Shown here: piece by piece, positions 9,208-32,537 of the stretch
Layout: each line of letters opens with the position of its first letter
Numbering within the stretch: position 1 is the stretch's first letter
IMG/VR virus record: IMGVR_UViG_3300042691_043300
Coordinates: 1 to 46,182 of that record
Source of the DNA: a virus
Strand: one strand, 5' to 3'
Length of the DNA stretch: 46,182 nt
Made by a program: the position numbers and the translations under genes
The notes under the pieces: model-generated
Told to the model about the DNA's origin: nothing
What the model saw: only the letters and a program-made list of their open reading frames with translations
Databases searched by the model: none

Positions 9208-12200
9208 TCAAGCCATTTTGATTTCAGAAAATCCGTTGTTTGATTTATTTATGTGTATTAACCCGTCAGCTAAATCTTTCATTGCATCAAGATGGCTTAT
9301 ACACAAAATAAAATCAAATTGTGTTTTAAGATAATCAAATAACAAATTAACAGAACCTATCTTTTCTGAATCTAATACACCGAATCCCTCATCAATTGCA
9401 ATAAAATTAGGACGAGGAAGACTTGAAACATTTATTAAAGCAGCACGCATTGCAATTGAAATCATAAATCTCTCCATACCTGATGCAAGTTCAACGGGCC
9501 AACTTGTGTCATCATTATAATGAAGATAACAATTTATGTTTTTGTCATCGGCTTCTAATGTCACATAAAATTCTACAATTTGATTTAATATTGAATTCAC
9601 CTCATCTTCAATAACAGGCATTATTTTTTTCAATAAAATGTGAGGAATTCCATTTTTGGCAATTGCCCCTAAATAGGCTTCATATACAGATACTTCATCA
9701 TATAAATCACTTAATTGTTTTTGTTTATCTTTCCATACATCAAATGTTGTTTTTAGAGCAGATAGTTTACTGTTACAATCCATTAATTGATTTTGAAACA
9801 CTTTATATTTAGATTTACAATCAGTGTATTCAAATTCCAATTCTTGTATTTTTTTGCTTATTTCTTTGTTAGTGTTTTGAATAGTTTTCTGTTTATGGTA
9901 TTTCTTTTCTTGGTGTTTTAAATGTTTTATTTTGTCATCTATTGATTTGATAACAACTGATCTGTGTTCTTGTTGTTGTTGCCGTTTTGATATATCATTT
10001 TCAATATCGGAGATTGCAATCTGCAATCTATTATAAGATGATTCTGCAGCAATAGTTTCGGGCTTTAAAATTTCTATTTGATTGTTGATACTTTCAATAT
10101 CAGATTTCAATGTTTCATATTCCGATTCCTTTTGTGGCAATAATTTTTTAGCCTCTTCTGCTTTTTGCACAAATGGATTACTTGTACAATATTTGCAATC
10201 AGGGTCATATTCATGTGTATCTAAATGTGCAATTTGTTCACGCAGATGCTTTAAATTTGTAGATACTCTAGCGTATTTTTCTTTTAATTTTTGATGTTGG
10301 ATTGTTAATGCTTCTAATTTTAATTTGGATTCTGTTATAGATTTAAAATCAATTTTAGAAAATTCAGAATTTGAAATTTTAAGGTCAGAAGTTAATTTCT
10401 TTAAAATTAATTTATCTGAATTAATATCATCATTTAATTGGTCTTTTTGTACAGATGAATTTTGCATCTGTTCCATAACTGTATCAATATCGATTATCTC
10501 ATCTACATTTATTATCTTAGTTGAATATGATTTAATTACATCTTCCAATTCATGCATATGTTGTTCACTTGAAACAAATGAACCTGATATTTCAAGAAAT
10601 TTTTGTTGGGTAGAATCAATTTGTTCAGGTAATTGTGAATATGAATCCTGTGCAATGTCTAATTCCAAATTTTTAATTAACGCCTGTTGTCCCTTAATTT
10701 CATTTCTTGCAATTATATACAAATCATCAAAAATGGATATGTCCAAAAATGAATTTAATAATTCTTTTCGTTCTCTCTGTGTTTTGAATATAAAATTCTT
10801 GTTGTCATTTTGCGTAGATAATGCAGTCAATAAAAAATCATCATATGAACCTATATACCCTCGAATAACACGGTTCGTTGAATCACGGTCTACATCATTC
10901 AGACTAAAATATTCACCATTTATAAATTTACCAAAATTAACATCAACTCTAACATTACCTGTCCTTTTATGTTCTTCACCTATACGCTCAATAACATAAG
11001 TTTCATGATTCAATTCAAATGTCAGCTTGCAATTGAATTTTGTTTTTTTGTTATTTAATACATCCTTTGCCCGATATGTTCTTGAGCATTTATCAAATAA
11101 ACAAAATGTTACGGCATCTAACAATGTAGATTTACCTGAAGCATTAGGTGCGAATAATCCTTGTATGCCTGTAAAATTTGACATATCTACAAAGTTATTT
11201 TCGCCATATGAAAACATATTTGAAAATTCGAATGTCAAAGGCTTCCATACAACATTACGGACAACAACATTTGAGTTATCTAATTTAGCATTCATTATTC
11301 TGTTAACATGACGTATTCTATCAATATCAACATGTTGACCGCCCTCGATATCTTTTATATAGGTTGTAAGCAAATCATTTTGATATTCAACATCACGAAC
11401 ATCACCTAATACAGTATTACTATTGTTTGTAAGGTATTCATGATTATTAACTTTTATAACAGTTGTTTCAAGCAATTTATGTCTTGTTTTTAACAATTGA
11501 ATCGCCTTTGTAACATCTTTATAATTTGTGTTGTTATATTTTATACGAAGGTTTAGATTTTTAGGTAATGAATCAATGTAATCTCTTGGAGTTATAATTT
11601 TACCATCAATCATTTCGATTGTTGCATATGCAATAGTATTTTTTATTTCAATAAATTGCGCAGATTTTGTTTTCAAATCCCAAACCATAAATCCGTGTTC
11701 AAGATCCTCACCATGATTTTGTTGAATCAATGAACCTGCATATGCAATTGTTTTTTCTGAATTTAAAAATTGCCGTTTATGAATGTCACCTAACAATGCT
11801 AAATCAAAGCCTTCAAACATTTTAGGACCGACAAATTCATTTTGTATTTCGTGATTTAGATCTGTAATTGCGCTATTAACTGCGCCGTGATGCAATGCTA
11901 TTTTATAAGGTGCATCGATGTCAGTTGAAAGAATCCATTCATTAGGTGTACCGTAAACAGAGAATACAGAGAATTTTACACCATTAAATTCATACACCCC
12001 GGTATCTTTCCAATAATGAAGATTAGGATGATTTAATGTTGTTACAATTGGCGATAATGCATCAAGTCTTGAATCATTATTTAGGTTAGTATCATGATTA
12101 CCTGTTATCAAAATTGTAGGTGCAATGTCAGCACATGATTTGAAAAAATCAGCAACCATTTGAATAAGTTCAGGTGACATGTCATTTTTTGAATGTACAA

Positions 12201-12345
12201 TATCACCTGCTAAATATATAACAGAATCAGCATCAACATTATCTTTTAGATATTTGTATAATTGTTTAAATATTGATTTGTATTCAGTATGTCTTTTGAA
12301 ATTGCGAATGTGAACATCTGCAATGTGAAATATTTTTGAAATCAT
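9208..12345 (-). CDS. Fused recombination exonuclease: gp47 (Mre11/SbcD) + gp46 (Rad50/SbcC)
   Basis: The N-terminal third is a Mre11/SbcD-type metallophosphoesterase with ADVH (9-12), GDIVH (47-51), GNHD (82-85), LHHGAV (near 151) and GDIHK (near 186). From about residue 365 it becomes a Rad50/SbcC-type ABC ATPase. It has a P-loop FAPNASGKST (near 396), long coiled coils around a CKYC zinc hook (near 715), a signature-like ELASGMERF (near 958) and a Walker B/D-loop IAIDEGFGVLD. T4 encodes these as two genes whose products process DNA ends for recombination-dependent replication. Here they form one 1045-residue chain. The first P-loop glycine is alanine. The ATG overlaps the primase stop (TAATG), so the two are translationally coupled. 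Confidence 0.93.
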   Translation of the reverse strand: MISKIFHIADVHIRNFKRHTEYKSIFKQLYKYLKDNVDADSVIYLAGDIVHSKNDMSPELIQMVADFFKSCADIAPTILITGNHDTNLNNDSRLDALSPIVTTLNHPNLHYWKDTGVYEFNGVKFSVFSVYGTPNEWILSTDIDAPYKIALHHGAVNSAITDLNHEIQNEFVGPKMFEGFDLALLGDIHKRQFLNSEKTIAYAGSLIQQNHGEDLEHGFMVWDLKTKSAQFIEIKNTIAYATIEMIDGKIITPRDYIDSLPKNLNLRIKYNNTNYKDVTKAIQLLKTRHKLLETTVIKVNNHEYLTNNSNTVLGDVRDVEYQNDLLTTYIKDIEGGQHVDIDRIRHVNRIMNAKLDNSNVVVRNVVWKPLTFEFSNMFSYGENNFVDMSNFTGIQGLFAPNASGKSTLLDAVTFCLFDKCSRTYRAKDVLNNKKTKFNCKLTFELNHETYVIERIGEEHKRTGNVRVDVNFGKFINGEYFSLNDVDRDSTNRVIRGYIGSYDDFLLTALSTQNDNKNFIFKTQRERKELLNSFLDISIFDDLYIIARNEIKGQQALIKNLELDIAQDSYSQLPEQIDSTQQKFLEISGSFVSSEQHMHELEDVIKSYSTKIINVDEIIDIDTVMEQMQNSSVQKDQLNDDINSDKLILKKLTSDLKISNSEFSKIDFKSITESKLKLEALTIQHQKLKEKYARVSTNLKHLREQIAHLDTHEYDPDCKYCTSNPFVQKAEEAKKLLPQKESEYETLKSDIESINNQIEILKPETIAAESSYNRLQIAISDIENDISKRQQQQEHRSVVIKSIDDKIKHLKHQEKKYHKQKTIQNTNKEISKKIQELEFEYTDCKSKYKVFQNQLMDCNSKLSALKTTFDVWKDKQKQLSDLYDEVSVYEAYLGAIAKNGIPHILLKKIMPVIEDEVNSILNQIVEFYVTLEADDKNINCYLHYNDDTSWPVELASGMERFMISIAMRAALINVSSLPRPNFIAIDEGFGVLDSEKIGSVNLLFDYLKTQFDFILCISHLDAMKDLADGLIHINKSNNGFSEIKMA

Positions 12346-13327: not shown

Positions 13328-13780
13328 TTAGGATTTGTCTAAAATAGATTTCAATTCAGAATTACCTCGCAATGCCATGAATCTTCTTGGACCTATACAA
13401 TCATTGTAAAATTCATCTGATAGAATGACATCATATTTATGATGCATGTTTTCCTCTAAATAATTTACTTGACCTTTTGTCATTGCAAAGTGTAATATTT
13501 CAAATTTGAAATTTTCTTTACCTAATTTATGAATGTCTTCAAGTAAAGGTTTGTTTGAGCCCATATATTCACGCCAATCAGATTCAGTTGTTACCTTAGC
13601 TCTTCTGACTTTACCTTCACGTTTTTGTTTTGCAGTTAATGCTTTTTTGCGTGTTGATGAAACATATTTTCTGCCAATATATTTTTTACCGGTCAATGTA
13701 TTAGTAATCATATAGACGAAACCATGCACACCTGCAGGTATCTCATCAACTATTTTATCTTTATGAAACCAATGTGACAT
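13328..13780 (-). CDS. Free-standing GIY-YIG homing endonuclease
   Basis: This 150-residue GIY-YIG nuclease carries GFVYMITN (20-27) and KKYIGRKY (32-39) with the catalytic Arg of the GRK context. The conserved Glu lies in NYLEEN (105-110), and YNDCIG follows. These match the Seg-like phage endonucleases that cut DNA to spread between related phages. A basic stretch at about 44-62 could contact DNA. It is not inside an intron or intein. It overlaps the metallopeptidase gene stop by one base and lies immediately before promoter-like element P1, at the junction of structural and replication genes, a typical place for such mobile genes. Confidence 0.9.
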   Translation of the reverse strand: MSHWFHKDKIVDEIPAGVHGFVYMITNTLTGKKYIGRKYVSSTRKKALTAKQKREGKVRRAKVTTESDWREYMGSNKPLLEDIHKLGKENFKFEILHFAMTKGQVNYLEENMHHKYDVILSDEFYNDCIGPRRFMALRGNSELKSILDKS

Positions 13781-15105: not shown

Positions 15106-16779
15106 TTAGCCATCCCATCTTACTGCAATATTAATATCAACGTCTTCTCGCATCTGTATAGGTTGACCCAATTTTGCAACAGCAACCATATGACCTTCCG
15201 AATTATACATTCCTATTGTTGTTGCATACGGTCTTAATAACGAACCTGTCATGTCATCTATTAATAAATCGGATTTAGGTGATTGTAATGCAGTTGGATT
15301 TGTTGTGATGCTAAAATCACCCTTTCTAATTCTGCACATCACTTCATACTCATATATCCTGTGTACACTTTGAAAATCAAGTTTGAAATCTGAATTGAAT
15401 GTGTTTATATATTTGTTATTTAATGGCGACAATACAATTAGACCTTTGCGGTAAAAAACATTGCCTACAATCGCTGTATTGTACATATAGTCTGGATTTG
15501 CGAGACCTTTATAGAAATTGGTATCCAATACCGATCCTGTATAATATGCTTTGTCAACAAACCTTATTTCGTCTAATGACCCACTAAATGAATCCAATCC
15601 ATTTTGATTTCTTGAACCGAACATTAATTCAAAATCATTCAAGCAATTTCCAGTAGTGTCATTTATTGATGCAGATACAGGTCCGCCATTCACAACCATT
15701 TTCAACCGTGCTATATTAGATTCAGTATATTTTGTTACACTTATATGTGACCATTGATTTGAAGACACTGAACAGGACATCTGTGCAATTGTTTTACCAT
15801 CAGATCTTTTAAAATATAATCTATTATTATGCCATGTAAAATCATATGGATATATGTCGGTCGATTTATCCCTAAATGAACTTGACATATAAACAGTTTT
15901 TGCAGATTGACCTGAACCTACATATGATCTTTCTTGATAGCCCCAAGTGTTTTCAAATATAGTTCCATTTTTTGATATTACTGACCCTGTTCCTGATTGT
16001 GTTGATGGGTTTATCCAAAATGATATAGTAAATTCTTCTGTTGAATCAAAGTTATATTTATCATTATTGGGTGTACGTATAAAACTATAATTTGTGCCGT
16101 CATTTTTAAAATATGCAGCCATTCCACATTGTGAACCTGATATTGCGTGTCCTACATTATATGTAACATTATTAACAATACTAGGATAATTTTTTGAATC
16201 TATTTGATATGAGTCATAAACATATTTTCCGCTTGTTGTTCCTGAAAAATATTTAAAATTTCTAAATTCTGAATTGAATCCCCAAAAACCTATAACATTA
16301 TGTCTAGAAAACCCTATCAATCTTGACTCTAAATCTGAATCATAAAGATTGCCATACCCATCATCAATCAATGTAATACTACCTGATGTAATTTTTATAG
16401 ATCCAGGTCGCAGACGTTCACCGTGATCCATATACGGAATTGATAATATTGATGCTGTTATATTTAAATGTTTAAAGGTATATCTTCGATTTGGATGTTC
16501 AAATGAACCGTATGCATTATAAGGATCTCTGTAATATAAATGATTTATCGATTGCCAAGTAACATGTTTATATGTCCCGTCCGAATTTTTAGGATCGTTG
16601 TTTGCTTTAGCATCACCAATTGGAGTTAACAAGCTTGTATGATATCCCTCTGTTAATGTATAGCCGCTTCCAGATTGAAACAATTGATTGCGATTGTAGT
16701 TAAATGTTTTATATACTTTAATTGGTGTTAAAGTGAAATCCTGTTTACCTATCGGGGCGAATGTAGTTGGAATAGCCAT
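15106..16779 (-). CDS. LamG-like tail-associated/adhesin protein
   Basis: This is a 557-residue virion-type protein. Residues around 210-420 form a concanavalin/LamG-like jellyroll, with the FTISFWINPS strand, MSCSVSSNQWSHISVTKY and a later LDEIRFVDKAYYTG strand typical of such folds. These usually bind sugars or act as spacers. The last 50 or so residues (TTIGMYNSEGHMVAVAKL) match the ends of the next two genes upstream, so the three share an attachment or assembly domain. AAAGGATG precedes the ATG. Receptor or glycan binding is inferred from the fold and its place among baseplate-distal genes. Confidence 0.8.
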   Translation of the reverse strand: MAIPTTFAPIGKQDFTLTPIKVYKTFNYNRNQLFQSGSGYTLTEGYHTSLLTPIGDAKANNDPKNSDGTYKHVTWQSINHLYYRDPYNAYGSFEHPNRRYTFKHLNITASILSIPYMDHGERLRPGSIKITSGSITLIDDGYGNLYDSDLESRLIGFSRHNVIGFWGFNSEFRNFKYFSGTTSGKYVYDSYQIDSKNYPSIVNNVTYNVGHAISGSQCGMAAYFKNDGTNYSFIRTPNNDKYNFDSTEEFTISFWINPSTQSGTGSVISKNGTIFENTWGYQERSYVGSGQSAKTVYMSSSFRDKSTDIYPYDFTWHNNRLYFKRSDGKTIAQMSCSVSSNQWSHISVTKYTESNIARLKMVVNGGPVSASINDTTGNCLNDFELMFGSRNQNGLDSFSGSLDEIRFVDKAYYTGSVLDTNFYKGLANPDYMYNTAIVGNVFYRKGLIVLSPLNNKYINTFNSDFKLDFQSVHRIYEYEVMCRIRKGDFSITTNPTALQSPKSDLLIDDMTGSLLRPYATTIGMYNSEGHMVAVAKLGQPIQMREDVDINIAVRWDG

Positions 16780-16787
16780 ACATCCTT

Positions 16788-19700
16788 TTATTGTGTGACT
16801 TTAACAGTAAATAACATTTCATCTGTAAGAGAGCTCTTTATAGGTTTTGATATTTTTCCTATTGCCAATAATTCCTTCTCATCATTATATAATCCAATTG
16901 AACTAAAATACGCTTTATTCTGTCTTAAAAATGAGCTTATAATATCGCCTTCTGAACCTGTGACATATGTTGGATTATTTGAATAATTCAAATGTGAATT
17001 TTTCAATGTCACAAAATATCTGGCAGATCTTTTAATATCAACACCCCTACCATAAAATGCTAAAGGATCTCCGGAAAGATCTGTCAATCCTCTATCTAAT
17101 ACCACTTTCATTGAATGGAATAATCTATATGCATTATATCCATTTTTATCAACTGATCTGTTTGTATTCAATCCCAATTCATCAAGTTTTTTACCTGATA
17201 AAACAATTATACCGTGACTAGGATATACACGTCCATAACTTGTTTTTCTAACTGGAACTAATATAAATCCGTTGTCTAAATCTGAATAATTTTCAAAATA
17301 TGTGCCATCTAATAAAGTTGAAGTATCTTTAGGATTTACAGGATCTTCTACAAAATCTTGTAATGCCCATGCATCTGTAACAAATGCCATGTTAACATCA
17401 GGTTGATATGAACCGCTTATTACAGACCTATTATATGGCACCGAACCTGAAAATAAATATTCTAATAATAAGGGTTGCGTTCGCCATTTAAGATTACCAT
17501 CATATGTTACACCATTAACTGTCAATTTTTGTTTAACCGTTACCTTTGATAAATCCTTTGTAGGTGCAAATGTAAATCCTTCAAGTGTCTGTTGTGATGC
17601 AGGTGCAGCTGATACCTGAAAATCAGAATTATACCATATCGAAGTTCTACAAGATCCTGACATTTTTGTGGGTGATAATGTTGAACCTATTGGTAAATTG
17701 AAGCTTCCTGTCCATACACCTTCATAAATTGATTCATATACATTATAATATGTATTTATTTCTTTTAATGACATTGTATATGAAGAACTTACTAATGTTG
17801 CAACAGGATTTATGTTTTTCAATGTATTTGGAGGTGTTACATCAACAACAGATCCTGAAGATCCGTCTATTCTATATGTAACACTACCATCTAGACCCCA
17901 AAGATACACTCTTGAACCTTGAACCGTAACAGTTGAATTGTTTGCTATTATTGATGTATTTATGTAAGTATCTGTTGACGGTACAGCTAAACTTGCAGAA
18001 ACAATGCTTGATGTCACATATGAACTACCTACACCGTCTTCAATTGTTCCGATAACTACATCATATGAATTGCTTGACAAATATACAGGTTTAACTACAC
18101 TAGGACGTTTTGTTAGTGTATCGACAAGTGTTAGAGTTGAACCTTGATATGATGCAGTAAACATGTTTGAAAGTATACTGTCTTTTTCTTCATCTAGAGA
18201 AAATGATGTTGATGCAAATGTCATTTCCCAGTTACCGGGATCTAATGATTGTTTAAATCTTTTTCTTGCAATATCAATTATGTAAACATAATCTTCATCT
18301 GTACCATTAAAATTAAATTTTTGTTGTCCATGAGGTAATAACACATGCGCATATTGTGTATACATTGCCTTTGTTAATGTTTGATTATCCAAACCTCCCA
18401 AATCTCTAGCGCCTTTACCTTCATAATCAGCATATATTATATTATATTGGATTTCTGCTGAACATGTAGGTTTAGTATCAGGTGATCTATCATACACCGG
18501 TAAAATGTAACTCAATGAAGACGAATCAGACAAGCTTTGTGTTGAAGGTGTCAACAAAAATGGTGTATCATTTGACCATAATGCAAATGATGTAATATCA
18601 ATGGTCTTTAATGTATCGTCCTTCCTAATAGGATAATATACCCGTGCAGATGCCGTAGGTTCCTTTACCTCTTTGGGTGGCGGTGGCGGTGGCGGTGGAG
18701 GTGGATCCACATACCCACATGATTTTGAATTAGTTTCAATTCTTTCAATATATGTGCCGCAATTACCATCATGATATTCAGCGTATTTATCTAAATTTAT
18801 ACAATAGGTTCGAACTAATGTACCAGATGATGTACATGACGGTGCAGGTATTGCACCGCAAAATACAGAATTATCTTCTATTTTCTGTTCATATTCACCG
18901 CAGGCTCCATTTGTATAAATTCCCCATTTCTCTAATTTTAATACCGCTTGTGCATATGATGAATTTCTACATTCATATCGTATTAGTGTACCTGCTAATG
19001 GACACGGATTAGGTACATTAGATCCAGGTTCGATTGATTCCCCACACAAACAAACCACAAAATCATGAGCATACGGTTCATTAGGATCTGGCTGGACTTT
19101 GCATACACAATATTTATGCTGCCAACAAGGATCGATCATCCAATTAAAATCATATCCTTCACGATTTTGGTAATTAGGATATCCTGAATACCACGATATG
19201 AGCCAATCGCCCTGTGTAGGTTCTGGAACAGCTTCACACCCTGGAGGATTAGGATTACATCTAGGGTCTACAGAGGCACATTCAGCACAATTTTTTGGAC
19301 ATTCCGGAAGACAAGGATTTGATGTACAGGGATTAGGTGGTGCGCAATTAGGATGATCTGGATATTGCACACAAAATGGCAACGCATCACAATTATGTGC
19401 AGCATATGAATCAACAAAATATGTATGGTCACTATCAGAATCTAATTTTAAATCATATACAATTGTATCATCAAATAGACCAGAATTAGTTATTTCAAAT
19501 GATTCAATTAAAACAGGTCCTGATTCAGTTACAATATAATCACCAATTGATAATTGTTTTATTATACCGCCATCATGCAATATTTTATCAAATGCTTTAA
19601 ATGATTTCCTTGATAATTCAATATCTGCTGTTAACCATAAACCGTCAATTGACTTGAAAATGTGATCTGGTGTAGCAAATGATTTACCATTATTTATTGA

Positions 19701-21200
19701 TAGCAATCCCCTTTCACCTATAATAGGTGTTATTTTGTCAATAACTTTTGCGGTTTTTCCAGAACTTGTTTTTACTTCATCACCAATTGCAACATTTTGT
19801 ATTTGGCAATAACTACCATCACTCATTGCAACTTCAGTATCACCTACAAAACAACATACTGGAAATTCCGGGTCGGTCGGGCCAGTTGGGCCGGTGAAAA
19901 CATCCGGTAAACATTGTACACAAGTTTGATATGACGGTTTACCATCTAGATTCGGTCCTATCTTTTGAGCTGTAGGGCTGTTTTCTTGTGTTATTGTTAT
20001 TTGTCTGTAACATTTCCAAGATGTAGAAGGTGCCGGATTAGGAAATCTATATATCTGATTTAATCCCTCGAGTGTTGTCCTATATGCATCTATTATTTCA
20101 TCTACATTGTCGCAATTCTCAAGTGTACATCGATACCAGGGATTCTGAGGAGGTTGTACAGTTTGACAATTACTTGAGCATTCACTTAATGATGCATATT
20201 GACCATTTACTGCAGGTTGACATCCATTTGTTCCGCAAGTATACCTGATACAACCACTTTGTTGACATAATTGTGGAGTCGGGTAATTAGGTTCAGGTGG
20301 GAATATGTCAGCATTATTATTAGGTTCGTATGTAAATGGAGTGCATGTTCCATTATTACAATAATATACTGTTACTAATGCTGATGGGCTGCCAGGTCCA
20401 CCTGCAGGTCCTAATCCTTGATCTGATAATGATAAATTACATTGAGTACAATTAGTATATGTTGAACCTGCATTTGATAAATTAAAACCATTCAAACCGT
20501 CAGTTTGTTGCCATGCGGCAGATTTTACCCTCCAACATACATTATCTACTTTATAAACCTCTCCTATTGTCCAGCCGAATGATACACCGGGTGTTTCAGT
20601 TGATAATGGGAATCTATATGCAGGTGATGTTATTAATGGATTTTGACAATTTTCTAATGTGTATATGACTTTCCAAGGTGCAGGTGGCACATATGTACAT
20701 TCAGCACAAGTTTGATATTTAGGTTGATTTGTTAAATCTATACTATATTGTGAAATAGGATTTACAGGTACCGAATCAAATTGAACTACAACAAAGCATT
20801 GTCCGCCAGGACCTTTAACAACACCATTAGTTGGCAAATCAGCAAATTGTGATGTTCTTCTTGCTGGTATCGGTGTTGCATTTGGATTGCTACATGGTCG
20901 AATCCTATAATAAAAAGTTTGCGTAGGTCCAGAACCACCGCCTTGATTAGAACCGCCGCCGCTTGATGGTTGGCCTTGCGGATTTAAGCATGTACTGCAA
21001 TTAGTATATAATACTAGCCCTTCCAATTGTAAGGCGCCTGCAGGTGCAGCGCCTGTTGCTGGATTTGCTACAGACATTACTCTATAACATACACCTGAAC
21101 CGTCATTAAAAACCTGACCTACAGAAGCAGTACCGTTATTTCTATAACCTATTCTAGGCTGATTAGTGCTACAATTTAATAAGTTGTATAAATTGGCCAT
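16788..21200 (-). CDS. Cysteine-rich adhesin-like virion protein containing a mini-intein
   Basis: This 1470-residue mosaic protein starts with four copies of a 75-90 residue domain ending in a Tyr-x-x-Cys-x-x-Cys motif (YTNCSTC, YQTCAEC, YTNCTQC, YQTCVQC). A complete intein-like Hint domain follows at residues 450-603. Next come a Cys/Pro-rich stretch, two copies of a roughly 45-residue domain with CGxY and NSxxCG motifs, a poly-proline run near 832-843, and a C-terminal region of about 600 residues homologous to the protein encoded just upstream. It ends in the shared TIGLYN ... IGKISKPI domain. The many cysteines suggest disulphides and an extracellular location. Host recognition is inferred from the mosaic structure. 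Without the intein it would be about 1316 residues. Confidence 0.85.
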   Translation of the reverse strand: MANLYNLLNCSTNQPRIGYRNNGTASVGQVFNDGSGVCYRVMSVANPATGAAPAGALQLEGLVLYTNCSTCLNPQGQPSSGGGSNQGGGSGPTQTFYYRIRPCSNPNATPIPARRTSQFADLPTNGVVKGPGGQCFVVVQFDSVPVNPISQYSIDLTNQPKYQTCAECTYVPPAPWKVIYTLENCQNPLITSPAYRFPLSTETPGVSFGWTIGEVYKVDNVCWRVKSAAWQQTDGLNGFNLSNAGSTYTNCTQCNLSLSDQGLGPAGGPGSPSALVTVYYCNNGTCTPFTYEPNNNADIFPPEPNYPTPQLCQQSGCIRYTCGTNGCQPAVNGQYASLSECSSNCQTVQPPQNPWYRCTLENCDNVDEIIDAYRTTLEGLNQIYRFPNPAPSTSWKCYRQITITQENSPTAQKIGPNLDGKPSYQTCVQCLPDVFTGPTGPTDPEFPVCCFVGDTEVAMSDGSYCQIQNVAIGDEVKTSSGKTAKVIDKITPIIGERGLLSINNGKSFATPDHIFKSIDGLWLTADIELSRKSFKAFDKILHDGGIIKQLSIGDYIVTESGPVLIESFEITNSGLFDDTIVYDLKLDSDSDHTYFVDSYAAHNCDALPFCVQYPDHPNCAPPNPCTSNPCLPECPKNCAECASVDPRCNPNPPGCEAVPEPTQGDWLISWYSGYPNYQNREGYDFNWMIDPCWQHKYCVCKVQPDPNEPYAHDFVVCLCGESIEPGSNVPNPCPLAGTLIRYECRNSSYAQAVLKLEKWGIYTNGACGEYEQKIEDNSVFCGAIPAPSCTSSGTLVRTYCINLDKYAEYHDGNCGTYIERIETNSKSCGYVDPPPPPPPPPPKEVKEPTASARVYYPIRKDDTLKTIDITSFALWSNDTPFLLTPSTQSLSDSSSLSYILPVYDRSPDTKPTCSAEIQYNIIYADYEGKGARDLGGLDNQTLTKAMYTQYAHVLLPHGQQKFNFNGTDEDYVYIIDIARKRFKQSLDPGNWEMTFASTSFSLDEEKDSILSNMFTASYQGSTLTLVDTLTKRPSVVKPVYLSSNSYDVVIGTIEDGVGSSYVTSSIVSASLAVPSTDTYINTSIIANNSTVTVQGSRVYLWGLDGSVTYRIDGSSGSVVDVTPPNTLKNINPVATLVSSSYTMSLKEINTYYNVYESIYEGVWTGSFNLPIGSTLSPTKMSGSCRTSIWYNSDFQVSAAPASQQTLEGFTFAPTKDLSKVTVKQKLTVNGVTYDGNLKWRTQPLLLEYLFSGSVPYNRSVISGSYQPDVNMAFVTDAWALQDFVEDPVNPKDTSTLLDGTYFENYSDLDNGFILVPVRKTSYGRVYPSHGIIVLSGKKLDELGLNTNRSVDKNGYNAYRLFHSMKVVLDRGLTDLSGDPLAFYGRGVDIKRSARYFVTLKNSHLNYSNNPTYVTGSEGDIISSFLRQNKAYFSSIGLYNDEKELLAIGKISKPIKSSLTDEMLFTVKVTQ
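19392..19853 (-). mobile_element. Mini-intein / bacterial intein-like (Hint) domain, 154 residues
   Basis: The domain lies in frame inside the Cys-rich adhesin gene. All splicing motifs are visible: Cys1 in CFVGDTEV (block A), TPDH (TxxH of block B) in FATPDHIFK, a block F with VYDLKLD and HTYFVDSY, and the terminal His-Asn followed by Cys (AAHN then C). There is no room for a homing endonuclease, so it is a mini-intein or a BIL-type domain. Predicted splicing would join FPVC to CDALPF. Whether it splices or only cleaves cannot be told from sequence. Confidence 0.85.
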
Positions 21201-21209
21201 ATATTACTT

Positions 21210-22694
21210 TTAGAAATCCAATTTAACTTTAATCAACGCTTCTTCTTTATATGATTTTTTAATTGCCTGTGACAATTTTGCAACTGCAACTAAATCTTTA
21301 TTTGTGTTATATAATCCAATAGTTGTAATATAAGTTTTAGGATCTCCATACATATCGCCATGACGCAAATCACCTTCAGAACCTGTTACAAATGTAGGAT
21401 TATTTGAAAAGTTATAATCTGAATTTTTAACTCTTACAAAATAATGTGTTGATTTCACCTTTTCAGCGCCTCTTCCTTGAAATCCTAATCTGTCGCCGCT
21501 TCCATCTGTATATAATCCTGAGCCTGAAATTGATATAAAAAATCTCCTAGGATTATCGCCATCTAATTCTCTGGCTTTTGAAGTTCCGAATGATGCTGAA
21601 ACATCTAACATATCACCATTTAATACAATTATACCTTTTCTCTTAAATAGTTGACCGTATATAACAGGTGCAGTTGGATTAAATATACCATCTTCAATAG
21701 TTCCTGATACAATATTGTAAACCTCACCTGATTGTTTTATAGTTGCCGGATTCACAGATGAATCATCGATTAATCGTAATACTCTTCCAGTTCCTTGTAA
21801 ACCGATTGCGCTACCTGTATATGTATTACTTCCAGATACTGCTGTATATTGTGAACCTGAAAGATGAGCTAAATTTAATTCAATGTTACCTTCATCAAGT
21901 GATTCAAGCATACGAGCTCGATTTACATTTATAACATAAATTGAATTTGCTGTCACGCCATTAAATATAAATGCTTCATCAGTTGGATCTAAACATAACA
22001 ATCTATATTGACCATAAATAGCTCTTGAAGGCGTGTCATCAATTTGACCACCCTGATCCACTGATCCTGAACCGAATCTATTACCATATGCGATACTGAA
22101 TTGTGCTTCAGCATTGCATGTTGATAATGATGAGCTATTATATATTTCTAAATAATATTGTTTTTGTGCAGCGCTTTGGGCTGAACTTGTAAAGAATGTT
22201 GATAATGTACCGGCGCCTCCTGTCCATAATGCACGTGTAACAGTCTCTTGTTGATTGGGAACTACGTCTTCATTACTGAATACTGAAAACAATTTACCTG
22301 AACCTATACCTGAACCTGGAGGTAAAATCACACCACCACCACCTCCACCTGGAGGGAGTAAATCTATCGGATTTCTTCCAAATCCGCCACCACCTACAAA
22401 TCCTCCACCTCCATTGCCCCCGCCTCCATTAAATCCGGTACCGGTACTTATACCTGAATCTTTTCTTGGATCGACTTCGTATACTACATTTTTTTCATCA
22501 ACAATATAATCTTTGCCAGTCGCATCTTTAAATACCGGAATCGCTCCACCAACTACACCTTGAACAGATGGTGTTGTAGTTTGTTTTAATTGATCTGCAT
22601 CCAGGCCTGTCGGTTGGATAGATTTACCGGTTTCCCTTAATCTATCAATTAGTCCCGAATCTAATGTCATATCTGAATTAAAATTAACCGCCAT
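21210..22694 (-). CDS. Tail-associated structural protein, paralogue of the intein-bearing adhesin
   Basis: This is a 494-residue protein with a short N-terminal region, a Gly/Pro-rich flexible stretch (about residues 85-130) and a roughly 360-residue C-terminal part. The last part is clearly homologous to the C-terminus of the neighbouring 1470-residue protein. Shared landmarks are CNAEAQFSIAYG, FNGVTANSIYVINV, SGTIEDG, a KRKGIIVL strand, SNNPTFVTGSEGD and the terminal TIGLYN ... VAKLSQAI. It seems to be the basic form of the family, without the Cys-rich modules or intein. The position after the baseplate genes supports a tail or fibre role. I cannot name a T4 counterpart. Confidence 0.8.
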   Translation of the reverse strand: MAVNFNSDMTLDSGLIDRLRETGKSIQPTGLDADQLKQTTTPSVQGVVGGAIPVFKDATGKDYIVDEKNVVYEVDPRKDSGISTGTGFNGGGGNGGGGFVGGGGFGRNPIDLLPPGGGGGGVILPPGSGIGSGKLFSVFSNEDVVPNQQETVTRALWTGGAGTLSTFFTSSAQSAAQKQYYLEIYNSSSLSTCNAEAQFSIAYGNRFGSGSVDQGGQIDDTPSRAIYGQYRLLCLDPTDEAFIFNGVTANSIYVINVNRARMLESLDEGNIELNLAHLSGSQYTAVSGSNTYTGSAIGLQGTGRVLRLIDDSSVNPATIKQSGEVYNIVSGTIEDGIFNPTAPVIYGQLFKRKGIIVLNGDMLDVSASFGTSKARELDGDNPRRFFISISGSGLYTDGSGDRLGFQGRGAEKVKSTHYFVRVKNSDYNFSNNPTFVTGSEGDLRHGDMYGDPKTYITTIGLYNTNKDLVAVAKLSQAIKKSYKEEALIKVKLDF

Positions 22695-30165: not shown

Positions 30166-32058
30166 TTACAAATCGATAATTCTACCCTTTATATCATTTT
30201 TAGGATATTTAACTTCAAAAACACAAGGATCCATACTAGGATACACAACTCCATTTCTAGTGGCTTCTTTAACCGAATATAGATTTCCTGAATATCCCAT
30301 ATTTGTATCATACAGATTTTCAATTTCAATATTCTGAACCGATTGAACTCCCTCTATTTTATCAAGCTCGACCATAAGACTTGCAATATTTAATGGCGCA
30401 CCGATTTCCATTTTTTCATTATCTAATAATTCAATTAATTTTTGATTGCATCTAAGTAGAACATCATAACTATTATAACTAGGTCTTGTCACTAAATCAT
30501 AATTCACTCCAATGTTTATTATATACGGATCTTTTATTTGAACAGCATCCGTCATCAATCTATATTGGCGTAAATATTGCCTCAAATTTTCTTTTAGAGC
30601 TTTGTTAGCATGAACAAAATTCCTATTTGAATCAAATGATAACACATAAAGATTTAATGCATATGGATTTGGTATTTTATCATATGAATTCCATGAACTT
30701 ATCTGCACATCCTGTTCTACATATACTTTTGCAATTGCACCGAATCTGTCAGGCATCGTATAACACCTAAGTATATAATCTTCCTTTGTTACTGCACGAT
30801 TTTGTGCAGCAAAATGTGCCATTGCTTCTTCACGAATTATGTCAATAGATTTTTTATTTAATCCTCCATATGCTGCTGAAGGATTATTAACTGTTAATGA
30901 ATTAGTTATTGTTTCATAAATTTCAGGCGATACAATTTCAATAGGTGTATTTGCAACATATGAAACTAATGTTGTTATTGTATTTGAAGAGACATTGCCA
31001 TCAAGACCACTTGATAATGAATACTTGACAGTTAATGTTGTGTTTGACGGTGTCAATCCATATGTTTTTGAATAAAGAAAATTCATAGGATCGATACTGA
31101 CATCTTCTAATCTTTCGAAATAATCTAAACCGATACCTACATTATACGGATTTGGCAATATTTCTTCATCAGCTTCAGTGCTCATTCCTGCACCGAATTG
31201 TATTTCTGTTAATTCATCTTTTCGCAGCCTTGTTATAAATCTCTTTTCTGTTTGTTTATATGATAACAAATAAGGAACAGAAGAATTATATTGTGATAAT
31301 TCAACATCATTGAATGGTATATTTCTTATAGACATAGGAACTATATCTTGCGCTAAAAATTGAACCTCATACCATTTATTTGAATCGCTGTCAGTTATTT
31401 CTAAAATTTCACTTACATTAGGATCTGGAATTACAATTTTATCATAAGGTTTAGGTTCGTTAAACACAAATGATAATGTTGATATACTACCTTCAACAGC
31501 CCTAACTCTCTTTTTTAACAAATAATATTGAATTTCACCGCTGTTATTGTCTATTGAATAAACTGATATTGTTGTCGGGTCATAACTACTACTGTATCTA
31601 AAATCAACCGGATTCACCGTTCTGAAATATATACCATTAGTTGTTGACGCAACTAAGTCTTGCTCAATATTTAATGCATAATTAAAATCAGGACTGACAT
31701 TGCTTCCTTCACCTATTGCAGGCACTAATTGCATTATGTCTAAATCAACTTGCGCAGGAACAAGTGTTTTAGGTTTGTACCCAAGACCTTGTGATAAGTT
31801 ATAAAGATTTATACGTTCATTTACAGTATATAAAAATGATTCTTGCAATTGAACATCTGAATAAAAATTTAAAACATCACCTATATATGATGCCATTTCA
31901 ATAAACATCATTCCAGGTGATGATTCATTAAAATCGCTATAAACTTGTGGAAAATATGTTTTAGCGTAATTTATTAAAGCAAGACGAAGTTCACCAAAAT
32001 CTTTGTTGGTATATTTTATATCCCGTTTTAATTTATCAGATAAACTTACTCTTGACAT
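30166..32058 (-). CDS. Baseplate wedge protein, gp6-like (baseplate J family)
   Basis: The N-terminus of this 630-residue protein contains NKDFGELRLALINYAKTYFP, ESSPGMMFIEMASYIGDVLNF and VNERINLYNLSQGLGYKP. This is the typical opening of T4 gp6 and related baseplate J proteins that form the inner baseplate ring. The region near 430-560 (AMAHFAAQNRAVTKEDYILRC) is the conserved J-domain segment. It overlaps the gp25-like gene by one base, and the 25-6 gene order is as in T4. The length is close to T4 gp6. Confidence 0.92.
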   Translation of the reverse strand: MSRVSLSDKLKRDIKYTNKDFGELRLALINYAKTYFPQVYSDFNESSPGMMFIEMASYIGDVLNFYSDVQLQESFLYTVNERINLYNLSQGLGYKPKTLVPAQVDLDIMQLVPAIGEGSNVSPDFNYALNIEQDLVASTTNGIYFRTVNPVDFRYSSSYDPTTISVYSIDNNSGEIQYYLLKKRVRAVEGSISTLSFVFNEPKPYDKIVIPDPNVSEILEITDSDSNKWYEVQFLAQDIVPMSIRNIPFNDVELSQYNSSVPYLLSYKQTEKRFITRLRKDELTEIQFGAGMSTEADEEILPNPYNVGIGLDYFERLEDVSIDPMNFLYSKTYGLTPSNTTLTVKYSLSSGLDGNVSSNTITTLVSYVANTPIEIVSPEIYETITNSLTVNNPSAAYGGLNKKSIDIIREEAMAHFAAQNRAVTKEDYILRCYTMPDRFGAIAKVYVEQDVQISSWNSYDKIPNPYALNLYVLSFDSNRNFVHANKALKENLRQYLRQYRLMTDAVQIKDPYIINIGVNYDLVTRPSYNSYDVLLRCNQKLIELLDNEKMEIGAPLNIASLMVELDKIEGVQSVQNIEIENLYDTNMGYSGNLYSVKEATRNGVVYPSMDPCVFEVKYPKNDIKGRIIDL

Positions 32059-32537
32059 TATTGAACCTCAATATTAACATTTTGTGCTTCATTTGCAAAT
32101 ATACTTATTACTCTATTCGAATTAGAATTTAAAACACTAAATATTATTTGAATATTTACCGAATTTTCATCACCTAGCTTGTTATTATAGGTATCAACTT
32201 TAACATCAATTAGATTAACATATGGCATCCAAATTGCTGTTTGGTCACGTATTTGTGTTTTTAATATAACTTGAAGTGCATCAGAATTTTGTTCAAAAAT
32301 ATAATAAAGTAATCCTATTCCAAAATTAGGCTGCATGAACCTTTCACCATTTTTAGTTAATAGCAGATTTATATAATTACTAATAACCTGTTCTTCTGTT
32401 GTAACCGACATGTTAAACAACTGTGATGAATCATCAAATTTAGCATTGTTCATAGGTAGTTTTATAGCAAGAGTTGATGACTCTTTATAATAATCCGGTG
32501 GATAAATTTTATTTATTATTTTAACACTACCTGGCAT
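32058..32537 (-). CDS. Baseplate wedge protein, gp25-like
   Basis: This 159-residue member of the gp25/GPW family has the family core INLLLTKNGERFMQPNFGIG followed by LYYIFEQ, and a later I-x-MPYVNLIDVKV strand. In T4, gp25 sits in the inner baseplate and links wedge to hub and sheath. The size is slightly above T4 gp25 because of a short N-terminal extension. Its stop overlaps the start of the gp6-like gene and its own start follows the preceding gene by 3 nt. Confidence 0.92.
   Translation of the reverse strand: MPGSVKIINKIYPPDYYKESSTLAIKLPMNNAKFDDSSQLFNMSVTTEEQVISNYINLLLTKNGERFMQPNFGIGLLYYIFEQNSDALQVILKTQIRDQTAIWMPYVNLIDVKVDTYNNKLGDENSVNIQIIFSVLNSNSNRVISIFANEAQNVNIEVQ

Follow-up and report, generated by a model that had tools for sequence, protein, structure and literature searches.

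A candidate splicing-type mini-intein in a cysteine-rich putative adhesin encoded on a 46-kb phage genome fragment

Bacterial intein-like domains (BILs) mainly cleave, for want of a +1 nucleophile, and single mutations have made them efficient splicers (PMC7664689); they are located in hypervariable regions (PMC7765530). In mycobacteriophages, most inteins are found in terminases or in enzymes that act on DNA or nucleotides (PMC5050341), and the block F Asp is counted among the class 1 splicing residues (PMC10663303). Here, we report a Hint domain (window positions 19392 to 19853, minus strand) inside a cysteine-rich, tail-module protein of 1470 amino acids (aa), encoded on a 46-kb IMG/VR fragment (IMGVR_UViG_3300042691_043300, positions 1 to 46,182; this whole stretch is called the window). 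The domain is a rare, putatively splicing version of known phage Hint domains and no new kind of element. An initial annotation, made from the sequence alone, had described a complete mini-intein at this place, 154 residues long, with all splicing residues and without endonuclease, and both its coordinates and its residue list were correct. Its background statements, that phage inteins mostly sit in replication or packaging enzymes and that Hints in variable surface proteins are of the BIL type, agree with the studies cited above.

The host open reading frame (ORF) and the parts of its product are as follows:

16788-21200, minus: host ORF, 1470-aa precursor, predicted to be 1316 aa once spliced
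19854-21200, minus: putative N-extein (aa 1-449) with 26 Cys and a number of imperfect C..C..CxxC repeats
19854-19856, minus: Cys-1 (C449), making a VCC junction
19392-19853, minus: putative mini-intein (Hint domain), aa 450-603, 154 aa, 16.8 kDa
19851-19853, minus: Cys1 (C450), block A nucleophile, motif CFVGDTEV
19662-19673, minus: block B TPDH (T510, H513), motif ATPDHIF
19452-19454, minus: block F Asp (D583), motif VYDL...DHTYFV, with H592
19392-19397, minus: block G His602-Asn603, motif AAHN, then C
19389-19391, minus: Cys+1 (C604), opening residue of the putative C-extein
18681-19391, minus: cysteine-rich part of the C-extein, aa 604-840, 23 Cys
16791-18668, minus: C-terminal virion-type domain, aa 845-1470, of a family common to many related phages

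The residues by which class 1 inteins are recognized (Cys1, block B TxxH, block F Asp, His-Asn, and Cys+1) are all present, and the domain is without an endonuclease. Cysteines number 26 in aa 1 to 449, 23 in aa 604 to 900, and 2 in the Hint domain. The host protein had no match in NCBIfam or PHROGs. A class 3 intein (WCT, no position 1 nucleophile) was set aside on the presence of Cys1 and the absence of a block F Cys, a Hedgehog-type Hint on the presence of the His-Asn end, and a frameshift or chance ORF on the 1470-aa length and the conserved homologue described below.

In Pfam, the isolated Hint matched Hom_end_hint (1.3e-5) and Vint (2.3e-4), both below the curated cut-offs. A profile of 45 members (the window Hint and 44 relatives) was compared with PDB sequences and matched the BIL 2lwy (1.5e-21), the gp41-1 intein (9e-13), and other inteins. 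AlphaFold2, run on the 45-sequence alignment, returned a Hint fold (pLDDT 93.2, pTM 0.88); this model was used in place of one from a 4-sequence alignment, which was too poor for use (pLDDT 53). Its top 45 PDB matches in Foldseek (E ≤ 0.001) were BILs, inteins, Hedgehog autoprocessing domains, and Vint, the best being Tetrahymena BIL2 (E 5.7e-10), CthBIL4, and the gp41-1 and DnaB inteins, while the best viral matches were "Hint domain containing protein" entries and collagen-repeat proteins of uncultured Caudovirales phages. The domain is no chance match, and its fold, predicted with confidence, is closest to those of BILs and class 1 inteins.

Hint scans of viral contigs and genomes, with the single protein and with a paired alignment, yielded a sole find, a 1507-aa protein of another IMG/VR phage (L058) with the same Hint at the matching position. 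A mixed alignment that also took in tail-fiber Hints contained no stretch sufficiently conserved for scanning. The initial annotation had named, as a refuting result, close homologues that have lost catalytic residues; this was checked, and L058 keeps every one (positions kept: C449, C450, T510, H513, D583, H592, H602, N603, and C604). Protein identity between the window and L058 was 69.5% in the Hint, 35% in the N-extein, 54% in the cysteine-rich C-extein, and 71% in the C-terminal tail. Substitution rates were calculated by NG86 and LWL85; for the Hint, NG86 gave dN 0.216 and dS 0.855, a dN/dS of about 0.25 that is rough, as synonymous sites are near saturation. Because the Hint combines 69.5% identity and a low dN/dS with flanks that are 35% and 54% identical, it is, judged by this comparison, under purifying selection, constrained and not decaying. 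At the nucleotide level, the Hint was 74% identical, close to the 72 to 78% of neighboring virion genes, so that it was probably inherited vertically with the genome. Recent horizontal gain was set aside, since its nucleotide divergence is in line with that of the neighboring genes.

The window Hint probably works as a class 1-type mini-intein, one belonging to the phage virion-Hint family, which excises itself from an adhesin precursor and joins the exteins. In favor of splicing, all class 1 residues are present in the predicted protein and kept in L058. With the chemistry taken from knowledge of the family, ordinary class 1 cis-splicing is the most likely course, because the window naturally has Cys+1, the residue that BILs lack, plus the block F Asp. 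The reaction would open at Cys450 with an N-to-S acyl shift, in which T510 and H513 assist; Cys604, aided by D583, would attack next and give a branched intermediate; Asn603 would then cyclize with the assistance of H602, and an S-to-N shift would leave a native ...PVC-CDALPF... Cys-Cys junction in the 1316-aa protein. Splicing would take place in the reducing cytoplasm ahead of assembly, and the cysteine-rich regions would oxidize only later.

The wider distribution of such domains was surveyed by scanning viral contigs with a degenerate DNA pattern for CFxxGTx[VI]xM[AST]DG (loci L170 to L249 are among the matches listed). Many of the listed matches are virion-type or tail-fiber proteins, and Hints in phage virion proteins are therefore, by this pattern, common and ordinary. 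Examples include L174 (a DUF4815 domain and several tandem Hints), L225 (an endosialidase-chaperone domain downstream of the Hints, just below the Pfam cut-off), and L237 (a tail-fiber match); L174, L188, and L228 belong to phrog_358. Tail or tail-module proteins of Alcaligenes phage Afa-NA1, Achromobacter phage 2-1, and Providencia phage PSTNGR1 have a Hint at or near the C terminus. Two relatives that share the virion module, L003 and L155, have Hints of a different kind (PKD plus Hint ending ...VHN-K in L003; a C-terminal Hint ending ...THN-K in L155). The L003 Hint was matched with equal length, identity, and score in Salmonella phage Sen-NF (PV359490.1, 95026-95448) and Alcaligenes phage Afa-NA1 (PV550095.1, L158), in both cases within a "putative tail protein"; shared sequence or a mixed assembly is possible.

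Among the listed matches, a large set of Hints in virion-type proteins has Lys directly after the terminal His-Asn; many of these are flanked by Gly-rich sequence, and many occur in tandem (for example, L174:3822-4259, with several in a row; L193:896-1333; L225:2179-3111). This conserved +1 Lys suggests a function other than ordinary splicing. An alignment was made of endonuclease-free Hints with a readable C-terminal end (50 rows, 45 distinct). The residue after His-Asn was Lys in 42 rows, Arg in 3, and Ala in 2, and block F in these 47 rows was Asn or Ile; counted as distinct mini-Hints, 42 of the 45 have Lys, Arg, or Ala after His-Asn and either Asn or Ile in block F, the pattern expected of cleaving BIL-like domains. 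Asp at block F together with a nucleophile at +1 was confined to three aligned rows, those of the window (Cys), L058 (Cys), and L233 (Ser). Cys or Ser also occupies +1 in a further 7 sampled Hints, the majority of which contain a long insert; their block F residue is Asp in 3 and Asn in 4. Block F Asp was thus found in 6/10 Hints with a +1 nucleophile versus 0/47 without (Fisher p 6e-6, a description and no formal test, given the relatedness of the rows and the sampling bias that the pattern and regular expressions introduce). The claim of the initial annotation that an intein in a virion protein is unusual holds for one part only: in this setting the Hint itself is common, and the unusual, rare feature of the predicted protein is Cys at +1 with Asp at block F.

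Several observations accompany this survey. L233 (1-1815, minus), with Ser+1 and block F Asp, has a cysteine-rich stretch after its Hint and Asn in place of the block B His, and its phage, a related one, has a baseplate gene order similar to that of the window. Phage proteins with Cys at or near -1 of a Hint, tail-type ones included, otherwise differ (19854-19856 in the window; with a slash ahead of Cys1, NCNCDCNCS/CF in L162, NCNCNCACT/CF in L237, SCC/CF and CCC/CF in L225, GC/CF in L174, and AAC/CF in L228). Pfam AXH, the ataxin-1/HBP1 module, matches 34/45 phage Hints (best 2e-19; for example, L155:37-2514 and L225:262-3354), and ataxin-1 AXH chains in PDB are hit by the Hint profile at about 5e-6; on these profile matches, AXH and Hint may be homologous. 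A search for literature treating AXH and Hint together found nothing.

In a maximum-likelihood tree, the window and L058 Hints grouped together (100/100), joined by L228 (96/80), and the three were nested in a clade of 21 virion Hints (90/94) whose other members with a readable end all have Lys or Arg at +1. Descent of the window Hint from a Lys+1 cleaving-type virion Hint, through regain of a nucleophile at +1 and of Asp at block F, is favored by this tree but not established.

Several points weigh against splicing and against this descent. When the window and L058 were forced together with the seven other nucleophile-bearing Hints, the cost was 9.9 log units and the arrangement was not rejected by the approximately unbiased (AU) test (p-AU 0.23), nor was a grouping with L233 (AU p 0.16); for these sequences, the AU test does not separate nesting among Lys-type Hints from grouping with conventional inteins. 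The Asp alone is not diagnostic, because Asn stands at block F in 4/7 of the other Hints with a +1 nucleophile, and conservation of Cys+1 is weak evidence alone, because 22/23 cysteines of the C-extein region are kept in L058. Only one close homologue (L058) was found. No orthologue without the Hint was found in viral contigs (scans with the C-extein and the C-terminal domain), genome contigs, or named phages, so that insertion is not provable by comparison. By alignment, the insertion site lies in a fast-evolving region, as for BILs, while most inteins sit at a conserved active site. The Cys at -1 is also unusual, and it could slow or divert the first step.

The closest solved folds are BILs, the domain lies in a hypervariable region of a nonconserved protein, as BILs do, and its nearest relatives among phage virion proteins end in HN-Lys. 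All this would suit A-type BIL behavior, with mainly N- and/or C-terminal cleavage that detaches the N-terminal part, variable and rich in cysteine, from a conserved C-terminal part that anchors the protein in the virion, the N-terminal fragment perhaps being passed to another nucleophile; yet the absence of a +1 nucleophile defines BILs (PMC7664689), both the window and L058 have Cys+1, and the window has a block F Asp that its Lys-type relatives lack, which makes such behavior rather unlikely. The cysteines at the junctions raise a different prospect, to which we give a small chance, namely, that splicing is redox gated, with Cys-1, Cys1, or Cys+1 pairing or forming disulfides with the cysteine-rich exteins, and that precursor may reach the virion. 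All three are kept in L058, a Cys just ahead of Cys1 recurs in the L162, L174, L225, L228, and L237 Hints, and splicing of the Pyrococcus abyssi MoaA intein is blocked by a disulfide between an N-extein Cys and Cys1 (PMC10663303), but the host protein is cysteine-rich throughout, so that the junction cysteines may be incidental, and the cytoplasm is normally reducing. That the Hint is catalytically dead and retained as a structural module of the adhesin is very improbable: many sampled phage Hints, often tandem, do have degenerate C-terminal ends, but neither homologue has lost any catalytic residue despite changes at about 30% of the domain residues. A more speculative scheme, put forward with little confidence, has a cleaving virion Hint become a true splicing element through the regained +1 Cys and block F Asp and come under redox control by the Cys-1/Cys1/Cys+1 cluster, such that the adhesin would mature only in a reducing cytoplasm or would occur both spliced and unspliced.

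Judged by its neighbors, the host gene sits in a tail/baseplate module, with the following genes on the same fragment:

15106-16779, minus: next gene, laminin-G/ConA-like lectin domain protein
21210-22694, minus: neighboring ORF, paralogue of the host C-terminal domain (37% identity), without Hint
30166-32058, minus: baseplate wedge subunit (phrog_219, TIGR02243)
32058-32537, minus: baseplate wedge subunit (phrog_261, phrog_43)

The family of the host C-terminal domain occurs in hundreds of viral contigs and also in Flavobacterium, Microcystis, and Rhodothermus phages. The label of putative adhesin derives from position, composition, and gene family, without a direct match. Elsewhere in the window, 13328-13780 (minus) is a stand-alone gene for a GIY-YIG-like homing endonuclease (phrog_314, 3.7e-18) that also falls in the PHROGs "NAD synthetase" family (1.7e-38), a family name that may be wrong, and 9208-12345 (minus) is one ORF in which a calcineurin-like phosphoesterase domain is combined with an SbcC/Rad50-like ATPase, an apparent fusion of the SbcD-SbcC type.

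If the domain does splice, it would be a mini-intein in a receptor-binding-type virion protein, not in an enzyme of replication or packaging, and would parallel in nature the single change by which BILs were made into efficient splicers in the laboratory. The comparison also draws attention to the large, little-described set of Lys+1 Hints in phage virion proteins, for which Cys+1 and Lys+1 Hints form a natural pair for probing function.

Compared with class 1 mini-inteins (gp41-1, Npu/Ssp DnaB mini-intein), the window Hint shares the predicted Hint fold, Cys1, TxxH, block F Asp, His-Asn, and Cys+1, and likewise lies in frame within a longer protein without an endonuclease; unlike them, it sits in a fast-evolving cysteine-rich tail-module protein, away from a conserved enzyme site, has Cys at -1, and has no known intein-free allele. 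A-type BILs (CthBIL4, 2lwy; Tetrahymena BUBL1 BIL2, 6y75/6tmm) are its closest solved structures by profile and fold and share its similar length, His-Asn end, absence of endonuclease, and hypervariable setting, but they lack the +1 nucleophile, whereas the window Hint has Cys+1 and block F Asp. The P. abyssi MoaA intein, which is redox trapped, resembles it in having an extein Cys near the catalytic Cys1; its host is an oxidoreductase, and a redox effect in the window Hint is a possibility only. Nearest in the tree are the Lys+1 Hints of phage virion or tail-fiber-type proteins (L174, L179, L188, L193, L225, and others), with the same motif layout and type of host protein; in these Hints, block F holds Asn and the +1 position Lys or Arg, where the window Hint has Asp and Cys.

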